Assembly (NCBI GenBank): GCA_010093485.1 | Contig: MU001515.1 | Coordinates: 205,518-269,517 of the forward strand | From: Karstenula rhodostoma CBS 690.94 | Taxonomy: Eukaryota > Ascomycota > Dothideomycetes > Pleosporales > Didymosphaeriaceae | Direction of reading: 5' to 3' | Length of the DNA stretch: 64,000 nt | Shown: positions 10,805 to 37,146 of the stretch, piece by piece | How positions within the stretch are numbered: the stretch's first letter is position 1 | How the letters are laid out: every line of letters begins with the position of its first letter | Program-made: the position numbers and the translations under genes | Notes under the pieces: generated by a model | The model's input: the letters and a program-made list of their open reading frames with translations, nothing else | Databases searched by the model: none | Told to the model about the DNA's origin: nothing

Positions 10805-13154
10805 CTAACCATAGAGCGTTCCCCTTGTGCGATCCGTCACCTGACTCTCGTTGTGCAGGTGCTGCGTCACCTCCAAAGTCGTCATGATGTGCTGACGATC
10901 GAGCTTGGCATCTTGACGCGTAGCGAGCAGGCGCGCGATCTTGAGGATGTTCTTGATCTGGCGACCGTTCATGCTCAAGCGCGACAGCTCATCCAGCTCT
11001 TTGGTGGTGATGACGTGATCCTGCGGAGAATTGTCCAGGAAGTTCTTCCACACAGTGCGGCGCGATGCGATCGAGAGCTCCTTGTAGTTGATACTGATGT
11101 GGATGCGCGAGGCAAAGGCGGGGTCGAAGGTGTTGACGCGGTTCGTGGTAAGGAACATGGTGCCTTCGAAGTACTCGAGAACTAGATGGTGTCAGGTTAG
11201 CCAGCGTGCCCATACGGATCATGGGTGGTGCGTACCTCGCAGGAAGATGGACACGAGCTTGTTCCGCTCTAGCTCGTGTAGCGAGCGCTCTTCCAGGAAC
11301 ACATCCGCCTCGTCAAGCAGCAAGACGCTGTGCCACCGCGTACACATCTCTAAGATGTCGTGGAGCTTGGACTCGATGCGTCGCGGATCAAGGCCCAAGT
11401 CGCCGGCGCTCATCATGTAGAGTGGCACCTTCATCTCTTCGGCGACGGACTCCGCGGTAAGTGTCTTACCCACGCCTGGAGGACCACACAGCAGAATGAT
11501 CATGCCGCGGCCCTTGCCCTCGATGACGTCGTCGAAAGCCGCTCGGTGCTTCTGCTGCGACTCCGTGAATCCAAGAATAAGCTCTTTCTGGTTCTTGGGC
11601 AACACCAGGCGCTCGAACGCATCTTTCTGCCAATCAATCTCCTTTACACAATTGACGAAGAAGTTCAACCACATCTTGGTCTTCAGACTGTAACCTCGTA
11701 GAAGGGGTGTGCAGATCAGCTTCTGCTGGAGTGTCAGCGGAGGTCGCTTGGCAGCATCTTCCTCGTCCGCGAAGTGACCGTCCAGAGGCATGCCGTCGCT
11801 ATAGCCGGGTTCAATGAAGTCGTCGTCATCCGTAGCATCTGGCTCTGAGTCTGCGTTGGATGAATCGTCGAGATCCGGGTCTTCGTCATCGTCATCATCA
11901 CTATCCGAGTCGACTGCGTTTTTGTTCGAAAAGCGCGTGGTGTAGATGGCGTGACCGGGGTCAAAGCGGTTCCAGCCATAAGTGTCGATCACGATCTGAG
12001 AATTGTTAGCATTTGGACACAGCAAGTGTGGGACTGAGACTTACTCGGCCTTTGACGTGGTACTTGTCCTTATTTCCGAACTCGCCAAAATGCCAGGCCA
12101 GACCATCATAGGCTTTGTAATTGACGCCAGCCAGCTCTTCAACCTTGGCTCCCCGCTCGATGAGCCTCTCCCTGACTTCATCCACCTTGGGGTGGTACTC
12201 AAGAGGGAAGGCTCGTAGTTGAGTGATAGGCCGTGTTCCGCTGTAGCAAGGAAGAGATACGTTGAGTACGCCGGTTCCAAAAGAGGTTCCGTCCCAGTCG
12301 ACGTACTTGCCGACTACCCAGAACACAGGATTTCCTCCAGCATCCTGACCATATCGTGTGCTCTGCAACTGCACCGCCGTCTCCTGTCCATCTTGGCGCG
12401 TGAAGAGATTTTGGCCCGGCTGAAAGAGGGTCCAGAGATGCTGGTAAGTCATGACGTGCTTGTTAATCATGTCCTGCGAAGTGTCAATCAAATCTTTGAA
12501 CTCTTTCACCACGACGTCCAACAGAAGGTTGGCGTGCTCCTTGGTCGTGCGCTCCTCTTCAGTGGCATCGCCAACCTTGGAGATGGCAGTCTGAAGCTCG
12601 GCCCATCGGTGAATGAGCGGCTCGAACTTGCCGGAGAACTCCAGACGATTCAGATCAGCGGTGATGCCGGGGTAGCCTTTCAGGACGCTGCCAAGCAGCT
12701 TCTTGAGGAGGGGACTCTGCACAACTATGGAGTGCACAGCAAGGACCTTTGAGGCGTCACCATAGACCTTGACATGGCGAACCAACAGCGCCCCTAACAA
12801 AGTCAGTAAGAGTCAAGGCAGGATGTAAATTGCCTCGTGGAAATGTCCCAGTTCAGCGACAACTACGAGGAGTTACTTGCATTTGGCAGTCTTGTTGTTC
12901 TCGACGGCGACACCCAGATCGTTGGGGATGGTGTCCTGCCACTGATAGCGGCCCTTTTTATCTTCCTTGCCGGAGTAGAGGTCTTTGATGCCCGTCTTCA
13001 TTCCGGGATCACATGGGTCCTCGGGCTCCTCGGGTTTTTCGCTCACGGCGTCTGGAGTGGGCTCGACGCCATTCTCCTTGACTGGCTTCTCCGCCGTCGC
13101 CGAACCGTCAGCTGACGACGACGAGGCTGAGGAGGATCTCGCCCGTGCAGGCAT
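10805..13154 (-). CDS. AAA+ ATPase with DUF7025-type N-terminal region (719 aa)
   Basis: Exons complement(10805..11181, 11236..11995, 12045..12793, 12881..13154). The start is ATG 13154; an upstream in-frame TTG is not a eukaryotic start. Walker A GPPGVGKT is at 512-519, Walker B LLLDEAD with D569/E570, then sensor-1 FLTTN and an arginine-finger region DPAFASRIHISI. The N-terminal half carries the family pattern LLVRHVKVYGD...SIVVQSPLLKKLLG, followed by a WxRFDPGHAIY stretch and an acidic tract (370-406). Intron 1 fits only as a GC-AG intron (AAAT|GCAAGT ... GTTAG|GG), giving TAKWALLVR; a GT donor breaks the frame. These fungal AAA proteins are widespread but poorly characterised. The catalytic residues look intact. 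Confidence 0.9.
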
Positions 13155-14031: not shown

Positions 14032-16179
14032 ATGGCTACCATCATCAGAGTCCCCTGCTCGTCGGCCAACATTGGCCCGGGCTTCGACGTCATCGGCCTC
14101 GCGCTTTCCATGTACCTCGAGGTGCACCTCACCGTCACCAAGCAGGAGTCATCGTCGCATTCGCTCAACTGCCGCATCACCTACGAGGGCGTCAACCCCG
14201 AGTCGGTGCCCCTGGTTGCCGAAGACAACCTCATCACGCGCACCGCCGTATACGTCCTGCGCTGCCATGGCATCCGCGCATTCCCCGCCGAGACCCACGT
14301 CCACGTCAAGAACCCCATCCCGCTGGGTCGAGGGCTGGGCTCGTCTGCCGCTGCCATTGTCGCCGGCGTCAGCCTCGCCAATGAAGTCGGCAACCTCCAG
14401 CTGTCCAAGGCGCGCATGCTCGACTTCTGCCTCATGGAGGAGCGCCATCCGGACAACGTAGCCGCAGCCCTGTATGGCGGCTTCGTGGGCACCTACCTCA
14501 ACGAGCTGTCCCCCGAGGACCTCGATCGCATGGAGATCCCTCTCAGCGAGGTGCTCCCAGAGCCCGCAGGCGGCAAAGACACAGGACTGCAGCCACCCCA
14601 ACCGCCCAAGGACATTGGTCATTACACAAAGTTCAAGTGGTCGTCGGAGATAAAGTGCATATGCGTGATACCACAGTTCGAGGTGTCCACTGCCAAGGCG
14701 CGTGAGGTGCTCCCCGGCAGCTACTCGCGCAAGGACATTGTCTTCAACATGCAAAGATTAGCGGTTCTGACCACGGCTCTCGGACAGTCGCCTCCCGATC
14801 CCAGCATGATCTACACAGCCATGCAGGACAAGATCCACCAGCCGTACCGAAGAGGCCTCATCCCTGGTCTTACCGAGATCCTGCAGTCCGTGACCCCCCA
14901 CTCTCACCCTGGCCTGCTGGGTATTTGTTTGTCGGGCGCAGGTCCTACCATACTGGCACTGGCCACGAGCAACTTCGACTCGATAGCCGACCACCTGCTT
15001 GCTGAGTTCAAGAAGGAGGGCATCACTTGCGACTGGAAGCTGCTCGAGCTTGCCGAAGGAGGAACGACAGTGGAGAGGCCATCGACAGGCCCGTCTGCAC
15101 AAGCACCTGCGCAGGTTGAAGAAGCGCTTACCTATGCGTCATCTGGCGTCAGCATAGATGCCGGCAACGACCTCGTCAAGGGAATCAAGGCCCTGACCGC
15201 TGCTACCAGGCGTCCCGGCGCGGACGGCAAGATCGGTGGCTTCGGCGGCCTCCTTGATCTGGAGGCTGCTGGTTACACCGAACCGCCGATCCTAGTCGGA
15301 GCCATTGATGGCATCGGCACCAAAGTCAAAATTGCCTTTGAGATGGGCAAGCACGACACCGTCGGCATCGATCTTGTCGCCATGAACGTCAATGACCTGG
15401 TCGTGCAAGGCGCCGAGCCGCTGATGTTCCTCGACTACTACGCATGCAGCAAGCTCAGCGTCGAGAGCGCGGTCAAGTTTGTAGAGGGCGTAGCAAACGG
15501 CTGCCGACTCTCCGGCGCAGCCCTGGTCGGCGGCGAAACCGCAGAGATGCCCGGGATCTACCAGCAGGGCGAATACGACGCGGGAGGGTGCGCAATCGGC
15601 GCTATCAAGAAGGGCGCTACCATTCTACCCGACACTGCTGCGATGGCGCCGGGCGATGTCCTCTTGGGTCTCGCATCTAGCGGCGTGCACTCCAACGGAT
15701 TCTCTCTGGTCCGCAAGATCATCGAGAAGAAGGGCCTCTCGTTCCACGACACTGCACCTTGGAGCGCGAACGAGACGGTTGGAGGCAGTCTCCTCACACC
15801 AACCCGCATTTATGTTAAGCCTTTGCTGGCGGCCACTCGGAGGGGCCTCGTCAAGGGCATGGCCCACATCACTGGCGGGGGTCTCCTGGAGAACATCCCT
15901 CGCATGCTGCCTGACACGCTTGCCGCGGAGCTCGACGCGAAAACCTGGCCCGTTCTCGACGTGTTCAAATGGCTCAAAGAAGCCGGGCGGCTTGAAGACG
16001 CAGAGTTCTGCCGCACGTTCAACACTGGCCTGGGCATGGTGCTCGTCGTGGGCGAAGACAAGGTCCGCCTGGCGACGGAGATTCTGCAGGAGCACGGCGA
16101 GCAGGTGTACAGGATAGGGACGCTGACCAAGAGGGCCGACGAGGAGTGCGTTGTACAGAACATGGATGTCTGGCGATGA
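14032..16179 (+). CDS. Fused homoserine kinase - AIR synthetase (PurM), 715 aa
   Basis: An uninterrupted ORF starting in a good context (CACCATGG). Residues 1 to ~341 are a complete GHMP-family homoserine kinase: SANIGPGFDVIGLAL, the ATP loop PIPLGRGLGSSAAA (~93-107), ERHPDNVAAALYGGF and the C-terminal CLSGAGPT. It phosphorylates homoserine for threonine synthesis. A ~20-residue Pro/Ser/Ala linker leads to residues ~362-715, a full-length phosphoribosylformylglycinamidine cyclo-ligase: YASSGVSIDAGN, IDGIGTK, VGIDLVAMNVNDLVVQGAEP, LVGGETAEMPG, SSGVHSNGFSLVRK, ITGGGLLENIPR, FNTGLGMV. This enzyme makes aminoimidazole ribotide in purine synthesis. In most fungi AIR synthetase is the second half of ADE5,7, so this copy may be a paralogue. 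No stop, intron or composition break separates the halves. Next genes downstream are APRT and RidA. Confidence 0.95.
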   Translation: MATIIRVPCSSANIGPGFDVIGLALSMYLEVHLTVTKQESSSHSLNCRITYEGVNPESVPLVAEDNLITRTAVYVLRCHGIRAFPAETHVHVKNPIPLGRGLGSSAAAIVAGVSLANEVGNLQLSKARMLDFCLMEERHPDNVAAALYGGFVGTYLNELSPEDLDRMEIPLSEVLPEPAGGKDTGLQPPQPPKDIGHYTKFKWSSEIKCICVIPQFEVSTAKAREVLPGSYSRKDIVFNMQRLAVLTTALGQSPPDPSMIYTAMQDKIHQPYRRGLIPGLTEILQSVTPHSHPGLLGICLSGAGPTILALATSNFDSIADHLLAEFKKEGITCDWKLLELAEGGTTVERPSTGPSAQAPAQVEEALTYASSGVSIDAGNDLVKGIKALTAATRRPGADGKIGGFGGLLDLEAAGYTEPPILVGAIDGIGTKVKIAFEMGKHDTVGIDLVAMNVNDLVVQGAEPLMFLDYYACSKLSVESAVKFVEGVANGCRLSGAALVGGETAEMPGIYQQGEYDAGGCAIGAIKKGATILPDTAAMAPGDVLLGLASSGVHSNGFSLVRKIIEKKGLSFHDTAPWSANETVGGSLLTPTRIYVKPLLAATRRGLVKGMAHITGGGLLENIPRMLPDTLAAELDAKTWPVLDVFKWLKEAGRLEDAEFCRTFNTGLGMVLVVGEDKVRLATEILQEHGEQVYRIGTLTKRADEECVVQNMDVWR

Positions 16180-17470: not shown

Positions 17471-18256
17471 ATGTCCGGCGTCCCCCCCGACAGCACGCCC
17501 GTCCCCGCCAACGCCAGCACCGCAGAGCACCCCGCACCGCCGCACAAGGCCTCGACGTCGTCACACCCGCCCGCCAGCGACCCCGACCCCACGCTCACCA
17601 GCAACCACCATGCCTCCCAAAGAGGACAGCCCGCCACCGGTGCCGCCGCCGCCGCCGAACTCTCCAGTCTTACGCTAAGGCTCAAGAGCTCGCTGCGCCA
17701 GTTCCCCGACTTCCCCAGCCCGGGCATCCTGTTCGAGGACATCATGCCCCTCTTCGCCGACCCGCAGCTGCACGAGGACCTCATCCGCGCCCTCGTGCTG
17801 CACGTCTCGCAAAACTACGAGAAGCCCGACGTCGTCGTCGGCCTGGACGCCCGCGGCTTCCTGTTCGGCCCCAGCCTGGCGCTGCGCCTGGGCGCCGGCT
17901 TTGCGCCCGTCAGGAAGCAGGGCAAGCTGCCAGGCCCGTGTGAGACGGCCTCGTATGACAAGGAGTACGGAAGCGACTTCTTCCAGATGCAGGCCGACGC
18001 CATCAAGCCGGGCCGCAAGGTGCTCGTGGTGGACGACATCATCGCTACTGGTATGTGCACGTCTGCAGCACGGTGAAGTGGATTTGGATGTGGCTAACGA
18101 CACGACACAGGCGGCTCCGCAGCTGCGGCAGGCTCCCTCGTTAAGAAGCTCGGCGGCACGCTCCTGGGCTACGTCTTCATCCTCGAGCTCGACTTCCTCA
18201 AGGGCCGCGACAAGCTCGACGCCCCCGTCTACACGCTCCTCCACGGCCAGGAGTAG
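17471..18256 (+). CDS. APT1: Adenine phosphoribosyltransferase (241 aa)
   Basis: Exons 17471..18050 and 18111..18256 (donor GTATGT, acceptor ACACAG, join ATG|GGS). It converts adenine plus PRPP to AMP in purine salvage. Visible signatures are [18 protein letters not shown] near residue 75, [13 protein letters not shown], and the PRPP loop [12 protein letters not shown] (184-195). The intron splits the PRPP loop. The core is of normal length, but an N-terminal Pro/Ser/Thr extension of about 60 residues precedes it. No downstream in-frame ATG precedes the core, so the extension is probably translated. A C/T-rich tract lies directly before the ATG. It follows the AIR-synthetase fusion on the same strand and precedes RidA. 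Confidence 0.95.

Positions 18257-33869: not shown

Positions 33870-37146
<3,277 letters not shown>

Follow-up and report, generated by a model that had tools for sequence, protein, structure and literature searches.

The homoserine kinase–AIR synthetase fusion is a single protein that joins an enzyme of threonine synthesis to an enzyme of purine synthesis. It is encoded by one open reading frame (ORF) in a window of 64,000 nucleotides from Karstenula rhodostoma CBS 690.94 (GenBank assembly GCA_010093485.1, contig MU001515.1, positions 205,518 to 269,517 of the forward strand); positions below are those of the window. The same fusion occurs widely in Dothideomycetes, beyond the Karstenula genome. 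Judging from sequence comparisons, it is very likely a working bifunctional housekeeping enzyme, formed when the gene ADE5,7, which encodes glycinamide ribonucleotide synthetase (GARS) and AIR synthetase (AIRS), split and its AIRS part joined what was probably a neighbouring THR1. Homoserine kinase (THR1/ThrB) converts homoserine to O-phosphohomoserine, and AIR synthetase (PurM) converts formylglycinamidine ribonucleotide (FGAM) to aminoimidazole ribonucleotide (AIR). Both reactions are ATP-dependent.

The frame encodes two complete enzymes, as an earlier note on this DNA had claimed, and both equivalog models score above their cut-offs (NCBIfam). The thrB model TIGR00191 covers residues 5-348 with 342 bits against a cut-off of 168.25, and the purM model TIGR00878 covers residues 366-700 with 414 bits against 236.35. 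In Pfam, the kinase half matches GHMP_kinases_N (66-150, 61.7 bits) and GHMP_kinases_C (265-324, 21.6 bits, barely above the 21-bit cut-off), while the AIRS half matches AIRS (421-524, 73 bits) and AIRS_C (540-708, 130 bits). The Pfam scan found no GARS match in the ORF, which therefore lacks the GARS-before-AIRS layout of ADE5,7. The combination is as unexpected as the earlier note held it to be, and the tie that it drew between the AIRS half and ADE5,7 is upheld by the AIRS tree described below.

The earlier note had proposed a search for proteins with both domains. Among the best 120 of 4832 matches to the fusion protein, 118 carry GHMP_N, AIRS, and AIRS_C together; the exceptions, P0111 and P0116 (582 amino acids), are without a GHMP_N match. 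The homologues measure 705-720 amino acids in 101 cases (range 582-870), and those with the same architecture share 68-96% identity with the window protein. The closest named relative at the locus is the pleosporalean dothideomycete Paraphaeosphaeria sporulosa, at 96% identity. Taxonomy was checked for eight source genera (Paraphaeosphaeria, Oleoguttula, Aulographum, Glonium, Lasiodiplodia, Aureobasidium, Mytilinidion, and Lepidopterella), and all eight belong to the Dothideomycetes. They span Pleosporomycetidae, Dothideomycetidae (Dothideales, and Mycosphaerellales represented by Oleoguttula alone), and Botryosphaeriales. The other organisms named for these fusions, where a name is given, are taken to be Dothideomycetes.

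Public records mostly name the fusion by one half ("Homoserine kinase", "cyclo-ligase-like", once "ADE1"), which gives it a bearing on annotation. Many fungal homoserine kinase records, among the best 120 of 7990 matches to the kinase half, are labelled "Trihydroxynaphthalene reductase". Our guess is that this label comes from a mix-up over the gene symbol THR1.

Both active sites look intact. The comparison covered 49 motif positions (19 kinase, 30 AIRS) in the 120 homologues and met one substitution, of R224 in one homologue, with every other cell being the same residue or a gap; the positions had been chosen because their columns do not vary among 46 of the 120 sequences, which makes this count partly true by construction. 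Each of the 30 AIRS positions has the same residue in 119 or 120 of the 120, the remainder being gaps. All of the motifs looked for are present, namely the phosphate-binding loop, H-x-D-N, and conserved T, R, and R positions in the kinase half, and DGxGTK, GxDxVAMxxND, GGETAEMPG, HSNG, and HxTGGG in the AIRS half. Enzymes outside the fusion family provide an independent check: Escherichia coli PurM has the identical residue at 30 of 30 AIRS positions, and the Methanocaldococcus jannaschii homoserine kinase (1fwk) has it at 18 of 19 kinase positions, with a difference at P97. The loop PLGRGLGSSA is taken to bind phosphate, as in the GHMP family, and the roles of the other checked residues are likewise assumed. 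Both enzymes are presumably active.

The two halves are well conserved, with a mean identity to the window protein of 82% for the kinase half and 78% for the AIRS half (45 rows). The linker between them is variable: across 46 sequences every one of its 14 columns (349-362) shows some change, and mean identity is 26% (42 rows). A first structural model, with 46 fusion sequences as its sole input, did poorly in the N-terminal part of the AIRS half, with a mean predicted local distance difference test score (pLDDT) of 72.2. A later model drew on 71 sequences, in a mixed alignment with bacterial PurM and stand-alone THR1 added; it has a mean pLDDT of 91.2 and a predicted template modelling score (pTM) of 0.54, and its pLDDT falls below 50 at residues 353-364. 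High scores within the modules together with this pTM point to two good modules without a fixed arrangement. The variable columns and the low pLDDT agree with the short disordered linker described in the earlier note. In Foldseek searches, the AIRS half of the model matched PurM structures (1cli, 5vk4, 9jzw_C, and human 2v9y; TMt 0.94-0.97), and the kinase half matched homoserine kinases (5wat, 6cyz, 4p52, 4rpf, 1fwk, and 3hul; TMt 0.81-0.87).

The Karstenula genome (44.3 Mb in 29 contigs, with the window in contig C24) was searched in six frames; the assembly may be incomplete, and "only" below means the only copy found. Profile searches gave a single thrB match and a single purM match, both of them the fusion ORF, and the whole fusion protein matches itself alone. 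Elsewhere, AIRS_C has just two matches, both inside one 1390-amino-acid frame on contig C4, which is read as a putative FGAM synthase from its two-AIRS_C layout. The only GARS_A match is a gene on contig C7, which also gives the only purD match above the cut-off, four weak others lying far below it. This gene is stand-alone, encodes 430 amino acids, and has two exons separated by a 66-base intron with GT, TACTAAT, and CAG signals. Because the sole GARS match is this separate gene and the sole AIR synthetase is the fusion, ADE5,7, which the earlier note had proposed to look for in the same genome, was not found in the six-frame searches. An ADE2 of the purK type scores above its cut-off on contig C8, a PurN match does so while spanning one stop, and threonine synthase is represented by three exon matches on contig C5, none of which reaches the whole-gene cut-off. 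With these genes present, both pathways appear to continue past the fused steps.

Descent of the AIRS half was traced with a second search, whose composite query placed the C7 GARS protein ahead of the fusion's AIRS half. GARS and AIRS domains occur in all of the best 120 of 7981 matches, and stand-alone GARS proteins sit at or under the length limit of this search. No dothideomycete was found among the named fungi in these 120, 13 of which were checked by taxonomy. The AIRS tree holds 97 rows: the window protein with 38 of the 120 fusions, 45 ADE5,7 proteins, 6 animal GART proteins, and 7 bacterial proteins. The fusions stand on one side of a branch with support 91/86, and they fall together with ADE5,7 in a clade of fungal proteins (100/99), while the animal and bacterial rows lie elsewhere. 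Support is weak at the forks that divide the fusions from the closest ADE5,7 groups. The GARS protein of C7 groups with the GARS halves of 36 ADE5,7 proteins (100/100 against 6 animal GARTs), with at most 71% identity. By these sequence trees, both the AIRS half of the fusion and the C7 GARS are descendants of fungal ADE5,7, and the AIRS half is not of bacterial descent.

The junctions place the breaks. Stand-alone THR1 proteins end at about ...WKLLEPAEEGTTV plus a few residues. In ADE5,7, the junction reads ...RKDIAHRAFK-(few residues)-EALTYASAGVNIDAGN, which supplies the EALTYAS motif. In the fusions it reads ...WKLLEPAEEGTTV-(roughly 7-25 residues)-EALTYASSGVSIDAGN; this pattern, a kinase end before an AIRS start, matched 116 of 120 fusions, and the other lists were read from a sample. 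The C7 GARS ends in RKDIAGRALKK and a stop, at the point where ADE5,7 runs on through RKDIAHRAFK...EALTYAS. From these readings, the breaks fall in the ADE5,7 linker and at the extreme end of THR1.

The search with the kinase half (best 120 of 7990 matches) gave GHMP domains alone in 118 proteins; P0255 and P0272 have AIRS domains as well. One of the 118, P0301, is a partial Aureobasidium protein of 336 amino acids with a cyclo-ligase name. It is therefore read as a fragment of a fusion, and some other short rows may be fragments too. Eight species are named in both the THR1 and the ADE5,7 lists, and in six of them the two genes lie on contigs of the same size, a reading from contig sizes and locus tags that gives neither gene order nor strand. 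The six are Chaenotheca (197,642), Glutinoglossum (27,399), and, on contigs of megabase size, Phlyctema, Xylogone, Venustampulla, and Diplocarpon coronariae; they belong to Leotiomycetes, Geoglossomycetes, and Coniocybomycetes. In D. coronariae, the locus tags of THR1 and ADE5,7 are PZA11_002542 and PZA11_002543. Since contig sizes are identical in six of the eight, THR1 and ADE5,7 were probably neighbours in an ancestor.

The best explanation involves a split and a join. The two-part ADE5,7 gene would have split inside its linker, and at its 3' end THR1, probably the adjacent gene, would have gained the AIRS half as an in-frame extension. The GARS half would have lived on as an independent gene. 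The event would be no younger than the common ancestor of the Dothideomycetes sampled. ADE5,7 may have been duplicated, with complementary parts then lost from the two copies, or GARS may have been excised from a place between THR1 and AIRS. The product would hold a homoserine kinase module and an AIR synthetase module tethered by a short flexible linker. One promoter and one transcript would then yield both in 1:1 amounts, and substrate channelling is not expected because the two reactions share no intermediate.

A single origin of the fusion is preferred over several, with some results weighing against the reading set out above. The THR1 half, with Aulographum included, rejects a single fusion clade in the approximately unbiased test (p-AU 0.0006, 27 versus 52 rows), and p-AU in that test drops to 4.6e-38 when P0241 and P0244 are counted as unfused. 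A second THR1-half tree with Aulographum (19 versus 33 rows, 52 in all) rejects it too (p-AU 0.0022). P0241 and P0244, two stand-alone THR1 proteins, fall inside a group with fusions, including P0112, and end in similar tails (SLGITDTNR and SLGTTDTNR). They are either exon 1 of a fusion that reads into a linker intron or a true secondary split. A search seeded with the fusion ranks fusions first, and dothideomycetes with separate genes may escape the best 120. The linkage of THR1 and ADE5,7 fails in two of the eight species, Xylona and Sarea, where contig sizes differ.

Such trees would be expected if the fusion had several origins, or underwent recombination, within Dothideomycetes. That is very unlikely, given that the AIRS half gives one group and that the junction position is alike across fusions. 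The THR1 half also breaks up other classes: in the second tree, of 52 rows, Eurotiomycetes are rejected (p 0.0032), Leotiomycetes marginally so (0.048), and the two Coniocybomycetes split apart, while Sordariomycetes, Pezizomycetes, Lecanoromycetes, and Geoglossomycetes each stay together. The THR1 half is thus an uncertain marker at this depth. Without Aulographum (P0107), one fusion clade is not rejected (p 0.68) and the likelihood is slightly higher; P0107 was dropped after the tree had been seen, which makes this a check and not an independent test. The kinase half of Aulographum hederae P0107 groups with Xylona, Sarea, and Pseudogymnoascus (99/93), and its AIRS half falls inside the fusions and Dothideomycetes (31-row group, 100/97). 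This conflict reflects either an error in the gene model or the replacement of one half.

Other accounts of the ORF fare worse. The earlier note had named an assembly error joining two genes as one way to dismiss the fusion, and mis-assembly and chance are excluded because the architecture recurs in 118 of the best 120 homologues, at 68-96% identity. An artefact of assembly or annotation has its prior chance alone in its favour and is next to impossible, with the same architecture coming from several data sources. Acquisition of the AIRS half from bacteria by horizontal transfer is suggested by the top PDB sequence match, bacterial PurM 5vk4 (363.9 bits), ahead of 7lvp from Cryptococcus (358.2) and human 2v9y (333). 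It is scarcely credible: the 17 bacterial loci found share just 36-49% identity, and the tree, with its 7 bacterial rows, places the AIRS half with fungal ADE5,7. The earlier note had also raised a regulatory pseudo-enzyme, in which one half is dead or purely regulatory. This is most improbable, as the motif residues are kept in the homologues and are common to the solved enzymes, the six-frame genome searches showed no further THR1 or AIRS, and the later purine enzyme ADE2 and exons of threonine synthase are present.

Why the fusion was kept is a narrower question. It is likely that a harmless rearrangement or deletion between neighbours was frozen as the sole copy of two needed enzymes, which is one version of the best explanation. 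The identical contig sizes of THR1 and ADE5,7 in six of eight species are consistent with such an accident, as are a join at the domain ends and a linker that drifts freely. On the other side, conservation is broad, with no more than a single possible secondary split observed, and sequence alone cannot separate an adaptive from a neutral reading. Selection for pathway coupling, through a fixed ratio from one transcript or through cross-linked dimers that form a larger co-regulated assembly, is unlikely. Threonine supplies glycine for purine synthesis by the threonine aldolase route, which would give coupling a purpose, and the fusion recurs in both subclasses with no confirmed loss. In other classes, the unfused THR1 and ADE5,7 are apparently linked already. 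Downstream of the ORF, at 17471, lies a phosphoribosyltransferase gene (PF00156) that probably serves purine salvage, and the gene model of Bipolaris P0087 reaches the same domain. Against coupling, the reactions are non-consecutive and share no intermediate, as is known of the families; the linker has no conserved sequence, and the predicted domain arrangement is not fixed (pTM 0.54). No Gcn4-type TGASTCA site lies upstream of the ORF within the window, which holds 3 such sites against 9.2 expected. An accident fixed by the need for both enzymes is favoured over selected coupling.

The earlier note had suggested that the fusion couples homoserine phosphorylation to purine synthesis; the two steps share a frame, and a kinetic or regulatory coupling may accompany it. 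One form of coupling would be physical. Homoserine kinase and AIR synthetase belong to families known as homodimers, so the fused chain could form larger assemblies. A selected physical and regulatory link, in which the dimer-forming modules would build such an assembly and the state or ligand of one enzyme would tune the other, is quite unlikely. If true, it would explain both the break-up of the purine fusion of animals and fungi and the class-wide retention of the new partner.

Other features of the window are listed with the fusion in Table 1. The gene model of Bipolaris maydis P0087 has a shortened AIRS half that runs into a phosphoribosyltransferase domain; the phosphoribosyltransferase neighbour is therefore probably conserved, and the P0087 model wrongly joined. 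The adjoining AAA ATPase and DUF7025 frames are probably exons of one gene. The likeness of the 813-amino-acid frame to KatG was recognised by eye from its sequence and is our assumption. A shorter amino-acid-control promoter motif, TGACTC, was considered and dropped (18 sites against 40.8 expected, the nearest upstream site at 12810). TGASTCA and TGACTC are both clearly rarer in the whole window than in shuffled sequence.

Table 1. Features of the fusion ORF and other features of the window (residue numbers refer to the fusion protein).
Feature	Position	Strand	Basis
Fused ORF, homoserine kinase - linker - AIR synthetase	14032..16179	+	ATG to stop, 715 amino acids, no internal in-frame stop; homologues share architecture
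Homoserine kinase (THR1/ThrB) module, residues 5-348	14044..15075	+	TIGR00191, 342 bits; PDB homoserine kinases
GHMP phosphate-binding loop PLGRGLGSSA (presumed role), residues 97-106	14320..14349	+	P97 and G101-S105 same in 118/120 homologues, gap in 2
E-R-H-P-D-N motif, residues 137-142	14440..14457	+	E137, H139, D141, N142 same in 120/120; identical letters in M. jannaschii 1fwk
Inter-domain linker, residues 349-363	15076..15120	+	length and sequence variable
AIR synthetase (PurM; AIRS half of fungal ADE5,7) module, residues 366-700	15127..16131	+	TIGR00878, 414 bits; tree; fold
AIRS motif DGIGTK, residues 426-431	15307..15324	+	D426, G427, T430, K431 same in 120/120; also in E. coli PurM
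AIRS motif HITGGGLLEN, residues 612-621	15865..15894	+	H612, T614, G615-617, N621 same in 120/120
Adenine-phosphoribosyltransferase-like gene start	17471-18076	+	PF00156, 45.7 bits; 1.3 kb downstream of fusion ORF, same strand
AAA ATPase frame (PF00004) adjoining DUF7025 frame (PF22942)	11219-12800	-	Pfam
813-amino-acid frame	34705-37146	+	looks like bifunctional catalase-peroxidase (KatG)

The case is one of two known enzymes in a combination that was not found described, together with the break-up of a fusion common to animals and fungi. No description of a THR1-AIRS fusion was found by title or start of abstract in the open-licence full-text literature, and an earlier account elsewhere is possible. 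The GARS-AIRS pair has been dismantled, and one of its halves is now attached to an enzyme from a pathway unrelated to its own. Split and re-joining are both seen in the Karstenula genome, the one genome for which the separate GARS gene is shown, and the joined half is seen across the dothideomycetes found. The fusion is a candidate shared derived character for the class. It also offers a clean case for asking whether fused enzymes must cooperate or whether neighbourhood alone explains fusion, alternatives that are set out in the part of PMC9925542 drawn on here.

The closest parallel in kind is the spermidine synthase–saccharopine reductase chimera of basidiomycetes, which is lineage-wide, joins two pathways, and has separate genes as its counterpart in the other fungi examined, according to the portion of PMC10051792 consulted. 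The chimera involves other enzymes in another phylum, and that portion mentions no prior fused enzyme that was split to form it. Animal GART (GARS-AIRS-GART) is similar in that it, too, carries AIRS as a module within a multifunctional chain. Its modules all serve purine synthesis, however, and the AIRS half of the fusion falls outside the animal group. Stand-alone fungal THR1 and bacterial ThrB resemble the kinase half, which is a complete module with the checked motifs and shares 63-75% identity with the fungal proteins (best 120 of 7990), or 66-74% when measured in a sequence alignment. They differ in that the fusion adds a C-terminal AIR synthetase. Fungal ADE5,7, known as Ade1 in Schizosaccharomyces pombe, likewise ties AIRS by a short linker to another ATP-using enzyme, and the AIRS of the fusion is its descendant. 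The GARS and AIRS reactions of ADE5,7 are non-consecutive, as are those of the fusion. In the fusion, homoserine kinase, from another pathway, takes the place of GARS, and GARS stands alone on another contig.

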